Shown: positions 10,503 to 36,939 of the stretch, piece by piece | Position numbering within the stretch: the first letter of the stretch is position 1 | How the letters are laid out: each line of letters opens with the position of its first letter | Assembly: GCA_021162935.1 (NCBI GenBank) | Contig: JAGGXR010000158.1 | Location: forward strand, 1-41,412 | Reading direction: 5' to 3' | Source: Deltaproteobacteria bacterium | Lineage (GTDB): Bacteria > Myxococcota_A > Polyangia > HGW-17 > SLPX01 | Length of the DNA: 41,412 bases | Notes under the pieces: model-generated | Database searches by the model: none | Told to the model about the DNA's origin: nothing | What the model saw: only the letters and a program-made list of their open reading frames with translations | Position numbers and translations under genes: made by a program

Positions 10503-11417
10503 ATGTCGAAGGTATTCGCCGTCGAAGTCAGAAGACGCAAGACATGCATCTACAGGCATTCGGTTTCAGCCGTGACCATCCCGACCACATCGGGCCGTAC
10601 GACCATCATGGCCGGCCATCGTACAGCTGAATTTCATCTCGCCACCGGAGGCGTGAAACTCGTCAGCTATGACGGCCGCATCCTGTGCCTGCCGGTGGAC
10701 GGTGGTCGCGCCCTCGTGACAAAGAATGGTGTGGTCATCGAGTCCTCGAAGATCCTGTTGCCCCAGGAAATCGACAAGGATACGGCCCAGCGGGACTACG
10801 ACTACTCCACGTCCATCTTGGTCGCCCCCGAGACGCCAGCCACCAAGCTCCGAGCAGCCAAGCATCGACAGAAGTGGGCACTCACCCAGATCGAAGCACT
10901 TCGGGAAATCATCGAGACGCCTCAGATCCGAACCAAGGCCATCCGGCTCACCGAGTACCTATCCGAGGACCTCATCGTCTTGGATCTGACCGCCAAGGAC
11001 AAGTGGGACGCCATCAAGCAACAGGTGGGCCTGCTCGTCTCTTCGGGACGGCTTCCGGCCAAAGTCGAAATCAAGGCTTTTGAGAGCATCGTGACCCGGG
11101 AAAAAATGATGAGCACGGCCATCGGCGGTCGGATCGCCATTCCTCACGGCTCGTGCAAAAAGGTACCCTCGGTTGCGATCTCCATGGGCATCTACAAAAA
11201 GAGCATCGACTTCTCGGCACTGGATGACCAACCCGTTGACATCGTCATCCTGGCAGCGGTCAAACCCGCCACGTTCAACATCTACGTACGAACCTTGGGA
11301 GGAATCGCCCGCATTTTCAGGGACGGGCAGCTCCATGCGGCCATCATGAAGAGTCAGTCTCCGGCCGAAATTCTCGGCCATATCCACGACGCTGAGGAAC
11401 GGATCTGGCTCGTGTAG
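10503..11417 (+). CDS. ATP-synthase epsilon-like domain fused to PTS EIIA(Ntr)-like domain
   Basis: A 304-residue fusion. Residues about 3-88 match the beta-sandwich of the F1 ATP synthase epsilon subunit: VSAVTIPTTSGRTTIMAGHR aligns with the usual VxVPGxxGxxGxxPGHA, and ALVTKNGVVIESSKI with its last strands. Residues 89-137 (EIDKDTAQRDYDY ... ALTQIEALREI) look like the two-helix C-terminal hairpin. From about 147 the protein is a type-2 EIIA domain with the active-site His215 in GGRIAIPHG. The second conserved His (HLxxL) appears to be replaced (FNIYVRTLGG). EIIA(Ntr) proteins are regulatory phosphocarriers. GAGG precedes the ATG, and the gap to the PPP phosphatase gene is 27 bases. I know of no standard family with this architecture; the domain calls rest on motif patterns. 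Confidence 0.8.
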   Translation: MSKVFAVEVRRRKTCIYRHSVSAVTIPTTSGRTTIMAGHRTAEFHLATGGVKLVSYDGRILCLPVDGGRALVTKNGVVIESSKILLPQEIDKDTAQRDYDYSTSILVAPETPATKLRAAKHRQKWALTQIEALREIIETPQIRTKAIRLTEYLSEDLIVLDLTAKDKWDAIKQQVGLLVSSGRLPAKVEIKAFESIVTREKMMSTAIGGRIAIPHGSCKKVPSVAISMGIYKKSIDFSALDDQPVDIVILAAVKPATFNIYVRTLGGIARIFRDGQLHAAIMKSQSPAEILGHIHDAEERIWLV

Positions 11418-15301: not shown

Positions 15302-16801
15302 TCACTCCTCGGGACGAGTCGTTTCCATGCCGCCCGTCGCCGTCAGCCTGCATCCACTCGAACGGTTCCCAAGCGCTGTGTTAGCCACCGTACCCTTGAG
15401 GCGAAAAGAGCTGTACGTTCCGTCGCAATCCAGGTCGCCGCGGGCCTCCACCACGACGGTCGCTCCAACACCGGTTCCCGTGATCGTCAGCCGGTATTGA
15501 TAATAGTGTCTTGCCTCCAAAACGAAGTGGACATCCTTCCAGGTCTGAGCCTGCCAGGTCGCCTTGGTGGACACATACTTCCGCTGGCCGCTGCGACAGG
15601 GAGGCTGGATCGGCGTCCACCCAACCGATGGTGGCAACTGGCACGAGACGACCTTGCCCGTCGCATCGGCGTGCTTCGCCTGCAGGTAGGCCTGGGCCCC
15701 TGCGAAAATCCTGGCCACATTCTCACGCGCCTCAGCCGCCTTCGCCCGCCGGATGTACTTGATAAAGGTCGGAATGGCCACTGCTGACATGAGGCCGATC
15801 ATGGGGACCCACTGACCTGCGTTCGGCATGGCGAGACGAATCGTCAGGACCTTGTTCGACCGGGCCACATGAAAACGGGCAAGCATCGCCTTGAACAGGT
15901 ACGAAGCGGCAACGAACTCAAAGGCGGAACCAAGAGGGCCGAACCGCACCGCATCGGTCTTGCGTGCCGCTAAAGTAGTCTTCGTCTGTTCGATGCTCCT
16001 CGCGATCAACCCTTGCATCATTTTGAGAGTCGCCGCATCCGCCTGGACCGCAACGAGGATCTCCCCACGACGAGAAATACTTGCCAACGCGGCGTCCGCC
16101 TTGAAGGGCAGCGTGCGGGACAACGTTCGAGCATCGGCAAAGAACACTGCAAGCTGAGGGCCCGAACTCCGCGTCAAAAGCTTCTTCAAGACCGGAAACT
16201 GATCGGACGACCTAAAGGATTTCCGCACCCCCTTTTTGACCTCCACGAGCATCTTCAGGCCTGCCAGGTTGCCCAGGGCCAAGTCGTGGCCCAATTTTGT
16301 CGCGAGCACGTCGCCACTGAGACGAACCACGGTTCCACCCAAAACTGTCTTGGCCCGATCCAACAGACGATCGCCAACGGCCGGGACATGAAGCGACCCA
16401 GAAAAATGCCCAACCACCACAACACCCCAAGCCTTTCTGGCCGGTCCCACGAAACCTGCTGACCAACGGACAGCCGTGCAATCGATACCCACCCTCGATC
16501 GACACACCGACCCCATCTCCCCGATCATGGCACCTCGGCGCTGATCGCTGCCCAACCAGGCATTCAAACTCCCGCCCACCATGTGTCCCAGAGTTTTGAA
16601 ATCCACGATGGCCACAGCCTGAACGCTGGCGGGCAGTCTCTTGGCCGCCGGCTCCACGAGGCCACCCAAGGCCCCGGACTTGGCCGTCTTCTTCTTGCAG
16701 CCGGGCATCAGGAAAACCCACGCCGCACCGACCACGATCAGAGTCATCAATGCGCCGCCGATGCGACCTCGATTCACTCCAAGAACCCCCTCGTTTTTCA
16801 T
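15302..16801 (-). CDS. Lipoprotein with internal type IV pilin-like module
   Basis: A 499-residue protein. The N-terminus has a hydrophobic segment (about 15-33) and FLMPGC (Cys35), a lipoprotein-like signal. Residues about 50-330 form a domain I do not recognise. Residues 333-470 look like a deltaproteobacterial pilin: a hydrophobic helix running into AIPTFIKYIRRAKAAEARENV, then WKDVHFVLEARHYYQYRL and GDLDCDGTYSSF. In ordinary pilins that helix is N-terminal after a prepilin peptidase site; here it is internal. AGGAGGA precedes the ATG. It is the last gene of the minus-strand regulator-kinase-regulator series and starts 59 bases after the second regulator, suggesting that it is an output of, or partner to, that system. 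Confidence 0.75.
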   Translation of the reverse strand: MKNEGVLGVNRGRIGGALMTLIVVGAAWVFLMPGCKKKTAKSGALGGLVEPAAKRLPASVQAVAIVDFKTLGHMVGGSLNAWLGSDQRRGAMIGEMGSVCRSRVGIDCTAVRWSAGFVGPARKAWGVVVVGHFSGSLHVPAVGDRLLDRAKTVLGGTVVRLSGDVLATKLGHDLALGNLAGLKMLVEVKKGVRKSFRSSDQFPVLKKLLTRSSGPQLAVFFADARTLSRTLPFKADAALASISRRGEILVAVQADAATLKMMQGLIARSIEQTKTTLAARKTDAVRFGPLGSAFEFVAASYLFKAMLARFHVARSNKVLTIRLAMPNAGQWVPMIGLMSAVAIPTFIKYIRRAKAAEARENVARIFAGAQAYLQAKHADATGKVVSCQLPPSVGWTPIQPPCRSGQRKYVSTKATWQAQTWKDVHFVLEARHYYQYRLTITGTGVGATVVVEARGDLDCDGTYSSFRLKGTVANTALGNRSSGCRLTATGGMETTRPEE

Positions 16802-16814
16802 ACCGTCCTCCTCC

Positions 16815-16851
16815 TTTGGAAACTGACTGCACATTTTGGAGACTGGCTGCA
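16815..16851 (-). repeat. Two 17-base direct repeats before the pilin-like lipoprotein
   Basis: TTTGGAAACTGACTGCA (16815-16831) and TTTGGAGACTGGCTGCA (16835-16851) differ at two positions and have a 20-base period, about two helical turns. They fill the 59-base gap between the regulator stop and the lipoprotein start. A regulator binding site or mRNA element is possible. Confidence 0.5.
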
Positions 16852-16860
16852 AATATCTTG

Positions 16861-18237
16861 CTACCTGATGCCGTACTTGTCCAACTTGTAATACAGGGCA
16901 GACGTCTTGATGCCGAGTCGGCGCGCCGTCTCGGTCTTGGTGCCGCCCGATTCGTGATACGCCTTGAGGATGAGCTGACGCTCCAGGTCCTCGAGGATTT
17001 CGGGAAGACTCGCCTGGTCGTTGGAAATGGACAGCGTGGACTCATCGTGCGGTTGCGGTCGTAACTGGGTCGGCAGGCAGTCCACCTCGATTCGCTCTCC
17101 GTCGCAGAACACGAGCGCCTGTTCGAGGGCGTTTTCCAACTCCCGGACGTTGCCGGGCCAATGGTGGGCCATGAGCCGCCCCAAGGCTTCGTCGCTGACG
17201 ACCTTCTGTGCCATGCCCAACCGCTGCGACAAACGCTCCACGAGATGCTTCGACAGGTCCACGATGTCTTCGCGACGATCCCGCAACGGAGGAATCTCGA
17301 TGGGCACGACCATGATGCGATACAGCAGATCCTCGCGAAACAGGCCCTGACGCACCCGTTCTTCCAGATTCCGATTCGTCGCCGCCACGATGCGGACATC
17401 CACCTCGATCGTTCGCTCGCTTCCCACCCGCTCGAAGGTCCGTTCCTGAATGGCGCGCAGGAGCTTGACCTGCAGGGCCGGACTGATCTCCGATATCTCA
17501 TCTAGAAACAGGGTCCCGCCGTTCGCAAGCTCGAATCGCCCCATCTTCCTGCGCACCGCCCCTGTAAAGGCGCCGCGCTCGTGGCCGAACAGTTCGCTCT
17601 CCAGCAGCCCTTCGGCCAATGCGCCACAGTTGACCGCCACGAAGGGCCCGCCGGCGCGCTTGCTCTTGGCGTGGATCGCTCGGGCCACCAGTTCTTTGCC
17701 CGTCCCGCTCTCTCCGGTGATGAGCACGGTCGTGTCCGTGGGCGCCACCTTCTCGATGGCCCGAAAAATCTGCTGCATGGCCTCCGACCGCCCCACCAAT
17801 TCGCCACAACGCAATTCCACTTGGCCCCTGAGGTACTCGGTTTCCTGCTCGAATCGGTTGCGTGCCCGCCTGGCCTCGCAAAGCTCCATGGCCCGGGTCA
17901 CCTTGAGCCGAACCACCTCCGGTGCAAAAGGCTTGGTCACAAAATCGAAGGCCCCGATCTTCATCGCCTCCACGGCGGTCTCCACCGTGCCATACGCCGT
18001 GATGATCATGACCGGGACATCCGGGTCCAACTCCCGAATCCTGCGCAGCACTTCGACCCCGTCCATACCCTCCATCTTGAGATCCGTGATCACGAAGTCT
18101 ACGTCCTGGGCACGAAAAAGCTCCAGGCCTTCGGCCCCGCTGGCAGCCGTCAAACCATGATGTCCCATCCGATCCACGATTTTCGAAATTCCCAACCGAA
18201 CCGTCTCGTGATCATCAATAACCAACACCGTTCCCAT
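16861..18237 (-). CDS. NtrC-family sigma-54-dependent response regulator
   Basis: A 458-residue activator. The receiver domain has Asp9/Asp10 (VIDDHE), the phosphoacceptor Asp52 in VITDLKM, and Lys102. The AAA+ domain has Walker A GESGTGKE (175-182), the sigma-54-contacting GAFTGA (222-227) and TLFLDEIS. The C-terminus is a Fis-type helix-turn-helix ([27 protein letters not shown]). It should be phosphorylated by the kinase encoded just upstream and activate sigma-54 promoters. GGAGAAG precedes ATG 18237; the frame is open to 18288 but that extension is part of a duplicated junction sequence. Confidence 0.95.
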
Positions 18238-18266
18238 CGTCTTCTCCTGCTGTGCGGTTCGAAACC

Positions 18267-18330
18267 CTGTATCCAACGCACCACTCAAGCGGTAGGGCTC
18301 GAAAACTCTGTATCCAACGCACCACTCAAG
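18267..18330. repeat. 23-base direct repeat spanning the kinase-regulator junction
   Basis: The 23 bases 18267-18289 recur exactly at 18308-18330, an offset of 41 bases, with similar flanks (TCGAAA). One copy encodes the kinase C-terminus (LSGALDT), the other lies over the kinase stop and intergenic part. A 41-base tandem duplication shifts frame (41 is not a multiple of three), which appears to have created the present kinase stop. Confidence 0.75.
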
Positions 18331-19901
18331 GGAAACTCGAGCACGAACTCGGCCCCCCGCGGTTCATCCCCCTCCATGACCCGACCATCGACGGACGCGG
18401 ACCATAACGTGGGTTCTCGGACGTACAGAGCCCCGCCATGCGCATCAGCGACCTTCTTGCCCAGGGCCAGTCCCAGCCCGCTTCCCTGTTGCTTCGTGGT
18501 GAAGAAAGGCTCGAAGATCTTCTCGGCAAGGTCGGACGAAATCTCGACGCCACTGTTCCAGACCACGACCCGAGCAATCGGTGCGGTGCGACGGTCTGCC
18601 CGGCTCGTCCCAGACGCCTTTGCGCCGGAGGCGGCATCCTCCCGGCCGGCCGCTGGGCCGCTCGCCCCTGCCCCGTCGATCCGTTCCTGGGCCACCACGA
18701 TCCGCCCACCCGACTCCGTTGCTTGGAGCGCATTGCGGAGCAGATTCAGTATCGTGCGTCTCACTGCATCTGGGTCACATGTGACGGGCAACACCGCCTC
18801 GTCGCCCGCCCGATCGATGTGCACCCGCTTGGCATCCGCCTCCAGGCGCATCATGTCCAACGCCTGCTCCACCATCTGGCCAAGATCCTCGTTTTGGCGG
18901 TCCTCGGGCACCCACCTAGCGTACCCCAAAAAATCCTGAACCACACGCCCCAGATAATGCAGGTCCTCGATGATCGCATCCACCTGCCCCTGTTTGTCCA
19001 GGTCGTCCGACAGATCGTCACGCAGCAGTCCCGCACTCAGCTCCATACCTGCCAACGGATTGCGCACCTCGTGCGCCACACCGGCCAGCATCATCTTCAT
19101 CTGTTCGTCCCGCTCCCGCAGCTCGCGGCGCATCTGTTCCATGGCGGCCGCCACCAACCCCACCTCTCCACTGGCCGACACATCGACTGACTCGTGCAGG
19201 TTCCCATGCCCAATAGACTCGGCAGCCCGGGCCAACCGACGCAGAGGCAGACTCATGCGGCGCGCCACGAAGGCCGTGACCGCCACGAGCAGCAACAAAG
19301 CCACCACCCCCACCAGAGCGACCTTGCGCCCCAGACGAAACAGGAGGAAGTAGTACGAGGCGCTCCCCTCCGCTGCAGCCAGGGCCACGACCTTCCCGTT
19401 CTGGTCGCGGATCACGGCATAACCGGTCTTGTACAGAAGGCCGTCCTTGCCTCGATAGAGGAGTGTGGTCCCCTGACCCCGCCTTGCGACCCGGTCGAGC
19501 AGGTCCGCCTGCACTTCGAGCTGATAGTACTCCGTGCCGATGCGCACCCCCTTGGCCGTGTCCACCAAACTCGTGCCATCGAGTCGAAACAGATAGAGTC
19601 GACGGACGCCCGTGTCCTTACGAAGCCTGGCCAGGCGACGCGCCAACGCCCGGTAGGTCCGACTCGTCTCGTCCCCTGGCTCCAAAAACGCAAGTTCTTC
19701 GGGCAAAGCGGACAGGGCACAGGCCTGGGCCACGGCTTCGAGCCTGGCGCCCATCTCCTTCTCCATGGCGGCCGCCGTCTGATAGTAGACCCACAGGGCA
19801 AACAGAGCGAGCAGCACCAGAGCCGGGAGCACAAAGGCCAAGATGAGACGCCAAAAAATGGGCAGCCCCCTCCTGGTCGGCCCAATAGCATCGAGGCTCA
19901 T
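18285..19901 (-). CDS. Membrane sensor histidine kinase
   Basis: A 538-residue kinase. Transmembrane helices at about 17-40 and 193-213 bracket a periplasmic sensor domain of about 150 residues (PAS/dCache-like pattern: [27 protein letters not shown]). HAMP covers about 210-262, then the dimerisation domain has H277 in [11 protein letters not shown]. The ATPase domain carries NLLRNALQA (N box), FEPFFTTK and [12 protein letters not shown]. An insertion of about 30 Gly/Ala/Arg-rich residues lies between the N and G boxes. AAGGAG precedes the ATG. Regulator genes of the NtrC family lie on both sides in the same direction: 48 bases after this stop to the next start, and 168 bases between the previous regulator's stop and this start. 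Confidence 0.95.
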
Positions 19902-25940: not shown

Positions 25941-28349
25941 CTACGATGATGCATCCTCGTTTGATGCCTGGTCCTTGCCCGTGCTGCGGGAGCGGCGCCA
26001 CCTGGTGCCCTGAGGCGTGTCTTCGACCACGATACCCCGATGACGCAGGTCTTCGCGGATCCGGTCCGCCGCGGCATAGTCGTGCTCCTCGCGTGCCCGA
26101 TCCCGCCTGGCGATCAACTCCATAATCTCGGGCCCTGCCGGGCATGCGGCCTCGGGAATGAACCCAAGCACCCCGCTTGTCTGGGTCACGGCCTCCAGGA
26201 TCTCGGAGACCTGGGACCTGGCGACCCATCCCTGGGCCACGAGCCGGTTGATCCGCCTGGCGTACTGGAACAAACTCCCCATGGCGGCCGACACGTTCAG
26301 GTCGTCGTCCATGGCGCGCTTGAAGGCCTCCCGCATCTCCGCGGTGCGGGCCGTAACATCTTCGGAGGCCACCTGGCCGTCGGCGCTCGACACGTTATTG
26401 ACGAAATCGTCGAGCCGATGGAGTGATGCCCTGGCGGATTCGAGTCTCTCCCAGGAAAAGTGGAGCGGCTGGCGATACTGGGTAGTCGCCAAAAAGAATC
26501 GAATGTGCCTACCCGTATAGCCCCGATCGAGCAGGTCTGTCAGGTGCAGAGCCGTCTTGCCGCTCCAGGACATCTTGCTGCCCTCATTGAGCACCAGTTC
26601 GGCATGCAGGGCGACGCGTGACGGCGGCTTGCCGGTGAGCGCCTGAATCTGTGCCACCGTGTTCTCGTGGTGCGGAAAAATGAGATCTGTGCCGCTGATG
26701 TGCACATCGAATTCTTCGCCTGCGCCAGCAAGCGCCATGGCCGCACATTGCAGGTGCCACGAGGGACGTGCATTGCCCCATTCGCTCGCCACGTAAAATC
26801 CGACCCGAAGTTCGGCCAACGTGCTGCGCCGCAGCAAGGTAAAGTCGCGTGGGTCGCGTTTCTCGTATCGGTCCAGATCCACCGTCTTGCCCGTGCGGAG
26901 CTTGTCCAGGTCGATACCGGACACGGACCCATACTCGGGAAGCTTGGACACGTCGAAGTACAGGGACCGAAGCTGTTCGTACGCGAAACCAGCCTGGGTC
27001 AGCCGCCTGGCCAGATCGAGCATGTCGCCGAGGTGCTCGGTGGACCGAGGGTAGCTCTTGGCTGGCAAGATACCCAGGACATCTTGGTCCTCGAAGAACT
27101 CCTGAGCCACGCTCTCTGCAAGCCTCGCTGGATCGATGCCCTTCAAGGTGGCCTCGTCGAGCACATTGTCGTCCAGGTCGGTCATGCTCACCACGTGGGT
27201 GACGTCCAGGCCGTAGAAAGTTTCCAGGTACCGACGCAGCGTGTCCGCAAGGACGAGCCGACGATAAAACCCGAGGTGCGGTCTTCGGTGCAGGGTGGGG
27301 CCGCAGGTATAGAGGGTCGCGTGGCCCGGCTGGAGCGGATCGAAAACCTCCTTGCGCCGGGTCAGGGTGTTGAGCAGATCCAGCTTGGTTTCCACCGGCT
27401 CGCACAACTCGGGCTCGGGCACCACGAACAGGTTCGTAGACAGGTACCGCTCCCCTCCGTCGGGCAGGATGACCACCACCACGCCCTGGTCGAGAGTCCG
27501 CACGAGTTGCGTGGCCGCCACCATGGCCGCGCCGGAACTCATCCCGACGAACAGCCCCTCCTTGCGGGCCAACTCACGACTCATGGCGAAGGCCGCCTCG
27601 TCTTCCACGTTGACCTTCTCGTCCAGGATCCGTCCGTCGTAGATGCCCGGCACGTACGCCTCTTTGAGGTTCTTCAGCCCCTGGATCTTGTGCCCGAGAT
27701 AGGGCTCGACCCCGATGATGCGGATGGCTGGATTCAGCTCCTTGAGCCGTTTGGCACAGCCCATCAGTGTCCCGGTGGTGCCCATGGCCGCCACGAAGTG
27801 GGTCACCGACTGCTTGGTCTGGTTCCAGACCTCCAAGGCCGTCCCATAGTAATGGGCCAGGACGTTGTTCGGGTTGTTGTACTGATCGGGAAGGAAAAAT
27901 TCGTCGGGCCGCTCACGGACAAGACCATAGGCCTCTTCGATGGCGCCGTCGGTACCCTTGTCCGCCGCGGTCAGCAGGAATTCGGCGCCAAGCGCCGACA
28001 GAATCTTGCGCCGCTCCAGGCTCGCGCCCTCGGACATGGCCAGTAGGATCCGATAGCCCTTGATCGCCGCCACCAGGGCGAGCCCGATTCCGGTGTTGCC
28101 CGAAGTCGCCTCCAGAATCGTCTTGTCCGCAGTCAGCTCGCCCGACTGTTCGGCCGCCTCGATCATGCGCAGGGCGATGCGATCCTTGATAGAACCGCCC
28201 GGATTGGCAGCCTCCAACTTGGCGAAAAGCCGAACCTTGGGATTCGGATTGACCTTCGTGATGGGCACCAGCGGCGTGTCGCCCACCAGCCCCAACACGC
28301 CCGGCGCAGCCAGAGCGTCTCCATCGATTCTGTCAGGTCCTTGGGACAC
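25941..28349 (-). CDS. Cysteine synthase / cysteinyl-tRNA synthetase fusion
   Basis: An 802-residue fusion. Residues about 15-315 are O-acetylserine sulfhydrylase-like: Lys55 in NPGGSIKDR (PLP lysine), SGNTG (83-87), GTTGTL and the conserved SSGAAM. From about 325 it is a class I CysRS: CGPT (zinc Cys349), then HLGF (358-361) where HIGH is usual, WHLQC (Cys535), FPHHEN (His560/His561, Glu562), and KMSWS (592-596) where KMSKS is usual. The C-terminus ends DTPQGTRWRR, as in CysRS. Linking cysteine synthesis to charging would channel cysteine to tRNA. The altered HIGH and KMSKS motifs leave aminoacylation uncertain; a CysRS-derived ligase is the alternative. The start is GTG 28349 with GAGGT just upstream. 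It is last in a probable operon after the SsnA-like gene (59-base gap). Confidence 0.9.
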   Translation of the reverse strand: MSQGPDRIDGDALAAPGVLGLVGDTPLVPITKVNPNPKVRLFAKLEAANPGGSIKDRIALRMIEAAEQSGELTADKTILEATSGNTGIGLALVAAIKGYRILLAMSEGASLERRKILSALGAEFLLTAADKGTDGAIEEAYGLVRERPDEFFLPDQYNNPNNVLAHYYGTALEVWNQTKQSVTHFVAAMGTTGTLMGCAKRLKELNPAIRIIGVEPYLGHKIQGLKNLKEAYVPGIYDGRILDEKVNVEDEAAFAMSRELARKEGLFVGMSSGAAMVAATQLVRTLDQGVVVVILPDGGERYLSTNLFVVPEPELCEPVETKLDLLNTLTRRKEVFDPLQPGHATLYTCGPTLHRRPHLGFYRRLVLADTLRRYLETFYGLDVTHVVSMTDLDDNVLDEATLKGIDPARLAESVAQEFFEDQDVLGILPAKSYPRSTEHLGDMLDLARRLTQAGFAYEQLRSLYFDVSKLPEYGSVSGIDLDKLRTGKTVDLDRYEKRDPRDFTLLRRSTLAELRVGFYVASEWGNARPSWHLQCAAMALAGAGEEFDVHISGTDLIFPHHENTVAQIQALTGKPPSRVALHAELVLNEGSKMSWSGKTALHLTDLLDRGYTGRHIRFFLATTQYRQPLHFSWERLESARASLHRLDDFVNNVSSADGQVASEDVTARTAEMREAFKRAMDDDLNVSAAMGSLFQYARRINRLVAQGWVARSQVSEILEAVTQTSGVLGFIPEAACPAGPEIMELIARRDRAREEHDYAAADRIREDLRHRGIVVEDTPQGTRWRRSRSTGKDQASNEDASS

Positions 28350-35601: not shown

Positions 35602-36939
35602 ATGGTACACACGGGGTTCAATGCACATCGAAAGTCACCTGCACCGCGTGCAGCACCAGCGGCCACCAACCTGATGGTCACCGTCATGGTCGACCTCGTC
35701 GCCATGGTCTTCGTGGTGCAGAGTCTGGCAGCCTGCAAGACGTCGAAGGGGCCGTCCGGAGGAACGAACGCCAACGTGAACACGAGCATCGACCCGACAT
35801 GCACCACCGTTCGAGTAACGCATTACAGCGGTGGTCCACGCGGCTGGTGCGAATTTTCCAGGAATCTGCCCATACTGCCCGACTTCGTGCGCAACGGCAT
35901 GACCCTCGCCATTGCAGAGCCCTGGAACGGAGGCTCGTACGGAGGGGCGAGTGGCGAGGCCTGCGGAGAATGCTGGGAGGTGTCCAGTTCTTGGGACACG
36001 CAAATCCTCATGGTCACGGACCTATGCCCCATCAAGGGCAATCCTATCTGTGCTGGCGGCCACTTCCACTTCGATCTGGCGGCCGAAGCGGCCCAGGCGC
36101 TCCAGACCAAGGGCTTGGACGCAGCCTCGGCCCGCAGGGTCCCCTGTCCCGTGTCAGGCAACATTTACGTGGTGGCAAACGACTGGAACCAATGGGGCTA
36201 CATGCGGGTCGCGTTCGTCAACCTCCGCATCCCCCTGCGTGAAGCCTGGGTGCGTGCTGCTCCGGACGGCGACTGGCGCGCCTTCGAGCGATCCTCGGGA
36301 GCCTGGCAGATCAGCAACGGCCCCAGACCCGAAGACGGCAACGGCGTGCTGTTCCGCCTCCGCAGCGCCCAGGGCCAAATGGTGGAAAGCGACAAAGTGG
36401 TCCCGTTCCACATCGGCATCTCGTCGCAGGACCCCGCTCTGGAAGACATGGGCGCACAGTTCGACGACCAGAGTCCCGATGACACAACCTGCCCCTACCT
36501 ACCTCCGGGTCTCGTATACGGCGACGGCTACGGCGGCATCGATCAACTGCGCTGGCAGCCGAATCCATGGGGGGACGCCACCATCTCGGAAAGCCATGAA
36601 AACTGTCATCTCGGATCTGCGTCCTGCCTCAAAATCGATCACCTGGGAAACTGGAACGGATTCCACATCTATTACTACCCCACCTTCCCGACGGACACGT
36701 TCTCCAAATTGGTCGTCTGGGGCCGAACCTCGAAGGGCGAGATCCAGGTCCACCTCGGACCGGGCCACGAAGGGGACACCTGCGCGGACCAGGACGTCAC
36801 CTTTTCGACGGAATGGACCCAGGTCACCTTCGACGTGGCGCAGGGCTGCGGGAGTCTGCCGACGCTTTCGGCCGTTACCCTCCAAAGCGGCGCCCAGGGA
36901 GGCTCCCTGTTCCTAGATGACATCGAATTCCAACCCTGA
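35602..36939 (+). CDS. Expansin-like lipoprotein with extra C-terminal domain
   Basis: A 445-residue exported protein. A long basic N-region, hydrophobic segment (about 23-42) and LAAC (Cys45) make a lipoprotein signal. Residues about 65-185 are an expansin D1/GH45-like double-psi barrel: GEACGECWEV, TDLCP (Asp140) and HFD (156-158) in GGHFHFDLAAEAA. About 186-270 is an expansin D2-like domain (NQWGYMRVAFVNL, DWRAFERSSGAWQ), which in other expansins binds cellulose. A third, strand-rich domain (about 300-445) ends LFLDDIEFQP, a jelly-roll carbohydrate-binding pattern. GGAGGAGG precedes the ATG. Bacterial expansins loosen plant or microbial walls without hydrolysis. Being a lipoprotein is unusual for this family. 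Confidence 0.85.
   Translation: MVHTGFNAHRKSPAPRAAPAATNLMVTVMVDLVAMVFVVQSLAACKTSKGPSGGTNANVNTSIDPTCTTVRVTHYSGGPRGWCEFSRNLPILPDFVRNGMTLAIAEPWNGGSYGGASGEACGECWEVSSSWDTQILMVTDLCPIKGNPICAGGHFHFDLAAEAAQALQTKGLDAASARRVPCPVSGNIYVVANDWNQWGYMRVAFVNLRIPLREAWVRAAPDGDWRAFERSSGAWQISNGPRPEDGNGVLFRLRSAQGQMVESDKVVPFHIGISSQDPALEDMGAQFDDQSPDDTTCPYLPPGLVYGDGYGGIDQLRWQPNPWGDATISESHENCHLGSASCLKIDHLGNWNGFHIYYYPTFPTDTFSKLVVWGRTSKGEIQVHLGPGHEGDTCADQDVTFSTEWTQVTFDVAQGCGSLPTLSAVTLQSGAQGGSLFLDDIEFQP

Follow-up and report, generated by a model that had tools for sequence, protein, structure and literature searches.

Why does a type IV pilin module lie inside a protein that begins with an export signal of its own? The question is raised by a gene at 15302..16801 on the minus strand of a 41,412-nucleotide stretch from a Deltaproteobacteria bacterium of the Myxococcota (assembly GCA_021162935.1, contig JAGGXR010000158.1), the whole of which is called the window here. 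The gene encodes 499 amino acids plus a stop codon, an open reading frame whose architecture recurs in relatives, and the product is probably an exported, lipid-anchored envelope protein. The original prediction had described it as a lipoprotein carrying an internal pilin-like module that a prepilin peptidase could not process in the usual way, perhaps a hybrid surface protein or a decoy subunit interacting with pili.

All parts of the gene were read on the minus strand. Residues 1-35 (16697..16801; start codon ATG at 16801) form an N-terminal export signal with a candidate lipobox (...VFLMPGC), recognised from the sequence. An alpha/beta N-domain (residues 56-325; 15827..16636) was delimited from N-domain relatives and AlphaFold models. 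Sequence comparison placed a remnant of the pilin helix alpha-1N at residues 332-349, equivalent to mature pilin positions 10-27 (15755..15808), and alpha-1C at residues 350-374 (IRRAKAAEARENV...; 15680..15754). The globular head, placed by sequence comparison and the model, occupied residues 375-499 (15305..15679) and contained four cysteines and a DLDCDG motif. The segment AIPTFIKYIRRAKAAEA corresponds to residues 342-358 and GDLDCDGTYSSF to residues 455-466 of the 499-residue protein.

Pilin identity and the alpha-1N remnant

Assignment of the C-terminal part as a pilin is carried by sequence comparison. The NCBIfam model PilA_Myxo (NF041775) matched the whole protein at E 8e-6 and the C-terminal part at 2e-7, far under the model's cut-off; Myxococcus xanthus PilA (PDB 8tj2) matched at E 8.5e-5, and the window genome's own prepilins matched residues 332-474 at E about 1e-27. 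The fusion head and these prepilins had a common signature, HYFQY...ADLDCD...E. Such matches are far beyond chance, confirming that the pilin features first noticed are real and excluding an absence of pilin similarity. The internal start of the pilin part was also confirmed, with the similarity beginning at residue 332 rather than at the 333 originally given. A Pfam scan of the whole protein returned zero matches, N_methyl included.

Sequence and predicted structure agreed on a lollipop fold of alpha-1C and globular head. The predicted local distance difference test score (pLDDT) of the AlphaFold model was about 75-96 across most of residues 350-499. AlphaFold was run on window and related-locus sequences only, and the alignments were therefore shallow (14 rows). 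Against solved pilins, the head of the window model gave Z 6.8 with 8tj2 (root-mean-square deviation [rmsd] 3.1 over 109 residues), 6.4 with PilV and 6.2 with an Acinetobacter baumannii pilin; the head of a relative's model gave Z 7.2 with PilE and 6.9 with 8tj2. Taken alone these values are middling, and Foldseek found a significant match for neither model.

Compared with the type IVa major pilin PilA of M. xanthus, the window protein has a matching second half of alpha-1N, alpha-1C and head, but lacks the leader peptide, the Gly-Phe site and Glu5, and about 330 exported residues precede its pilin part. The remnant (V-P-M-I-G-L-M-S-A-V-A-I-P-T-F-I-K-Y) keeps Gly14, Pro22 and Tyr27 in mature pilin numbering; Phe1 and Glu5 are absent, pilin positions 1 and 5 corresponding to Leu323 and Asn327, mid-chain, after some 320 residues. 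The protein thus has neither Glu5 nor a free N-terminal residue 1 of alpha-1. Glu5 is usual, not universal, in type IV pilins. In filaments it has been described as forming a salt bridge with the next subunit's free N-terminus, and the defining feature of prepilins is an N-terminal class III signal, its leader lying on the cytoplasmic side, where PilD cuts (PMC10191384). In the window protein the N-terminal signal is of the Sec/lipoprotein type, and the internal alpha-1N is without a Gly-Phe site. With the cleavage site gone and the pilin part internal behind an export signal, PilD should be unable to cut the fusion, as the original prediction held, and the standard route into the filament would be barred. 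This anatomy, together with the inability to be processed, is considered highly probable.

The remnant has also lost hydrophobicity. Median KD19 was 1.86 in the fusions (range 0.56-2.45, n = 17) and 2.96 in prepilins (n = 79; Mann-Whitney p 4.6e-10); all but three of the prepilins exceeded 2.45, a value passed by no fusion. The window protein scored 1.58 and is without the strongly hydrophobic alpha-1N of 20-25 residues typical of pilins. Most fusion copies had an uncharged stretch of 17-27 residues at this place.

Conservation told a different part of the story. Mean pairwise identity among the 17 fusions was highest in the alpha-1N remnant (53%), followed by the head (35%), alpha-1C (33%) and the N-domain (23%); among 72 prepilins it was 74% at positions 10-27, 39% in alpha-1C and 31% in the head. 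Pro22, Tyr27 and Glu35 were invariant (17/17), and Gly14 was kept in 14 of the 17. By these figures constraint on the remnant is relaxed relative to prepilins, yet well above that on the rest of the fusion, and exceeds what a passive linker would seem to need. Truncated pilin structures show that pilin heads fold without alpha-1N. Because the remnant is conserved all the same, it may have a job, for instance to pack against other alpha-1 helices or to lie within one leaflet of a membrane.

Fusions of pilins to other modules are known. Modular pilins are common and, as described, keep the N-terminal prepilin signal (PMC8179133); Streptococcus sanguinis PilB, for example, likewise joins a pilin module to an unrelated module (PMC8179133). 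In the window fusion, by contrast, the extra module precedes the pilin part, which has lost its class III signal; this places the fusion outside the modular-pilin definition, in which an extra domain accompanies an IPR012902/N_methyl motif at the N-terminus. Because the published survey required IPR012902 at the N-terminus of the proteins that it sought (PMC8179133), fusions of this kind could not be found by it. Searches of the open-access literature, where absence is a weak sign, yielded no account of type IV pilins that are lipidated or are lipoproteins, nor of pilin modules behind lipoprotein signals; the arrangement is apparently undescribed.

Relatives and history of the fusion

In total, 17 proteins combined a homologous N-domain with a pilin head; twelve or more families of the class were represented, as was another class of Myxococcota. 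Within the same class, all matches to the N-domain profile better than 1e-20 for which downstream DNA was read ended in a pilin head. Two further fusions (L097, L100) belonged to another class of the phylum, and three came from Myxococcales metagenome-assembled genomes: L082 (Polyangium sp. CRAIB_MAG117), L083 (palsa_1104) and L084 (BP4.bin10). The pilin was joined at nearly one position in the 17 fusions with a detectable homologous N-domain, and the same architecture recurred in independent genomes, so that orthologs do keep the fusion. In other genomes, more distant lipoproteins had N-parts that were different or in tandem, followed by a head of this kind. Scanning named genomes with a single protein gave no match. 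On these comparisons the lipoprotein-pilin arrangement is old and conserved.

Export signals varied among the relatives. Many had canonical or near-canonical lipoboxes (LAAGC, VALGC, TLGAC), and a few had an ordinary signal peptide instead; no lipobox was present in L082, L083 or L084.

The N-domain received no family name from Pfam or NCBIfam scans. It was also found in Myxococcota relatives without a pilin head (L068-L070, L072, L079-L081, L098, L099, L101), most of which resemble the fusions in their export signal or lipobox as well; they differ in stopping before the pilin part, some with a hydrophobic tail. In L098, L099, L101 and L067, all headless, a hydrophobic, often Gly-rich tail stood where the pilin part of the fusions begins. 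The N-domain of L083 (residues 25-167, AlphaFold model) showed a weak likeness to the Treponema pallidum outer-membrane lipoprotein TP0453 (PDB 3k8g-3k8j), with Z 6.1-6.8 and rmsd 4.0-4.9 over 115-127 residues; Z below 8 may reflect no more than a common arrangement, and the likeness seen is one of fold rather than sequence.

The hypothesis that all fusion heads form one clade was rejected (approximately unbiased test, p-AU 1.5e-5) on a tree with long branches and many unresolved deep forks. In two genomes of one family (G067, G126) the fusion heads were 59-65% identical to prepilins from other genomes of that family, while their N-domain was the one common to the remaining fusions. Two histories would account for this: repeated joining of one N-domain to pilins, or exchange of heads between the fusions and local pilin genes. 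Exchange is favored by the common position of the junction, within the limits set by the long branches and unresolved forks. A rule that fusion heads match the pilins of their own genome gave mixed results (own pilins were the best match in 2/6 genomes with data).

In a non-random sample of the group, 54 of 139 head-bearing open frames were without a recognisable prepilin site. In two small lipoproteins of the window genome itself a lipobox directly replaces the alpha-1N of the pilin head: L043 (G000:C18; ...LGATC followed by SRKMKK...) and L045 (G000:C143; ...MTGC followed by KEKSK...). With L025, L124 and L136, L043 represents the "lipo-pilins" of the window's order (MKKxxEYxxxLWTAEV...head), which have a lipobox for alpha-1N. 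Other heads (L010, L093, L115, L130, L142, L120, L144) lacked a prepilin site and sat on transmembrane helices, in some cases behind proline/glutamine-rich tails (PPQGYPPQGYPP). Helices of this kind with an inside N-terminus stayed hydrophobic (KD19 2.57-3.08 in L010, L093, L130 and L144; L115 was the exception at 1.98). Head C-termini in the group were almost always acidic, Glu being last in 67/79 prepilins and 15/17 fusions and Asp in most others.

Probable location of the head and possible link to the pilus

Four arguments, none of them proof, point to a head outside the cytoplasm: the export signal at the N-terminus, the low hydrophobicity of the alpha-1N segment, the even number of cysteines in 17/17 fusion heads, and four relatives (L026, L029, L034, L035) that have a lipobox but no hydrophobic segment. 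In these four no alpha-1N follows the lipobox, and their heads must therefore be exported without a transmembrane helix. The preferred reading can be put as a chain. The fusion would pass through Sec under its own signal, which would make the N-domain periplasmic, and the weakened alpha-1N would no longer act as a stop-transfer segment, leaving the head outside the cytoplasm as well. The pilin part has lost its cytoplasmic-side half, i.e., leader peptide, Phe1, Glu5 and the first nine residues of alpha-1. More tentatively, the second half of alpha-1N and the head may present, at the membrane or within the periplasm, a pilin-like surface that docks on pilins or parts of the pilus machine and tethers, titrates or senses them, and the N-domain may provide anchoring or ligand binding. 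The whole chain, an exported, usually lipid-anchored envelope protein whose pilin-like surface faces pilins or the pilus machine, was given a probability of roughly 0.5. The link to the pilus, strictly taken, is rather doubtful.

Several observations weigh against this chain. The lipobox of the window protein, L-M-P-G-C, departs from the consensus [LVI][ASTVI][GAS]C at -3 and -2; of the lipid-anchor signal originally predicted, the export signal is clear and the lipobox atypical in this copy. Cysteine parity is a soft marker only, 10/79 prepilin heads having odd counts. The remnant had pLDDT of about 34-50 in the AlphaFold models, too low to show how it packs. Among 16 genomes with fusion-type proteins, a prepilin peptidase was present in 15 and prepilins in all 16, a co-occurrence that gives weak support because nearly all members of the group have type IV pili. 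No recognisable pilus gene adjoined the window gene or those of its relatives, and the neighborhoods of six relatives, read by eye, contained neither pilus genes nor a conserved partner.

The last of these observations fits an account in which lipoproteins reused the pilin head generically, as an exported domain that binds ligands or serves a structural role, with the pilus link gone and the remnant packed on the N-domain or a membrane surface. Total loss of alpha-1N in some relatives and the many unrelated N-termini on which heads sit point the same way; however, the remnant is the best-conserved part of the fusion, and heads that are not one clade and, in two genomes of one family, are 59-65% identical to pilins from other genomes of that family suggest exchange or co-evolution with local pilins. 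Such reuse is possible, though less probable than the chain above. Topology offers another account, a two-pass membrane protein with a periplasmic N-domain, an alpha-1N crossing the inner membrane from outside to inside, and a cytoplasmic head. If the segment spans the membrane, the positive charges after it (KYIRRAK) favor a cytoplasmic head by the positive-inside rule, and the uncharged stretch of most copies and the hydrophobic tail at the same place in headless relatives are in keeping with a spanning segment. Its low hydrophobicity, the even cysteines of all fusion heads and the lipobox-bearing relatives that lack a hydrophobic segment make this topology improbable. The odd architecture and the draft state of the assembly (168 contigs) might also suggest that an assembly join or frameshift united a lipoprotein gene with a pilin gene; the same fusion in independent genomes, with a near-identical junction, rules such an artefact out for practical purposes.

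A more novel reading is that the fusion would be a true pilus component, one that does not depend on the prepilin peptidase. The half of alpha-1N that is kept would pack on the alpha-1 helices at the filament base, and the exported, lipid-anchored N-domain would tie or cap the pilus to the envelope, or titrate pilins; the fusion would then be one of a wider myxobacterial "lipo-pilin" class in which a lipid anchor stands in for the membrane half of the pilin. This reading is speculative and, as a whole, unlikely.

Genomic setting and implications

The ATG is preceded, at about 16807..16817 (minus strand), by a strong Shine-Dalgarno sequence (AAAGGAGGAGG) that is visible in the nucleotide sequence itself. 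An NtrC-type response regulator gene (16861..18288, minus strand) lies 59 bp upstream of the fusion gene, and a sensor histidine kinase gene (18285..19901, minus strand) overlaps the regulator gene by 4 bp. Lying on the same strand 59 bp apart, the regulator and fusion genes possibly belong to one transcript; their adjacency was not conserved beside the relatives' genes. The pair was not recognisable as PilS/PilR, its best matches being AtoS/AtoC- and NtrC-like and below cut-offs. Elsewhere in the window, a single open reading frame at 25941-28349 (minus strand) joined a cysteine-synthase-type pyridoxal phosphate enzyme (PALP) to a full cysteinyl-tRNA synthetase, and another at 10503-11417 (plus strand) combined an ATP-synthase delta/epsilon-type beta-sandwich domain with a phosphotransferase system EIIA type 2 domain. 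An expansin-like protein (EXPB1_D1 and Expansin_C) was encoded at 35602-36939 (plus strand), its host being a myxobacterial relative.

The N-terminal class III signal is the basis on which pilins are defined, sought and annotated, and in this group many heads stand on other N-termini. Current searches miss pilin heads without a prepilin signal. If it is true that such heads act on pili, they would be a natural tool for studying how filaments are anchored, counted and switched off.
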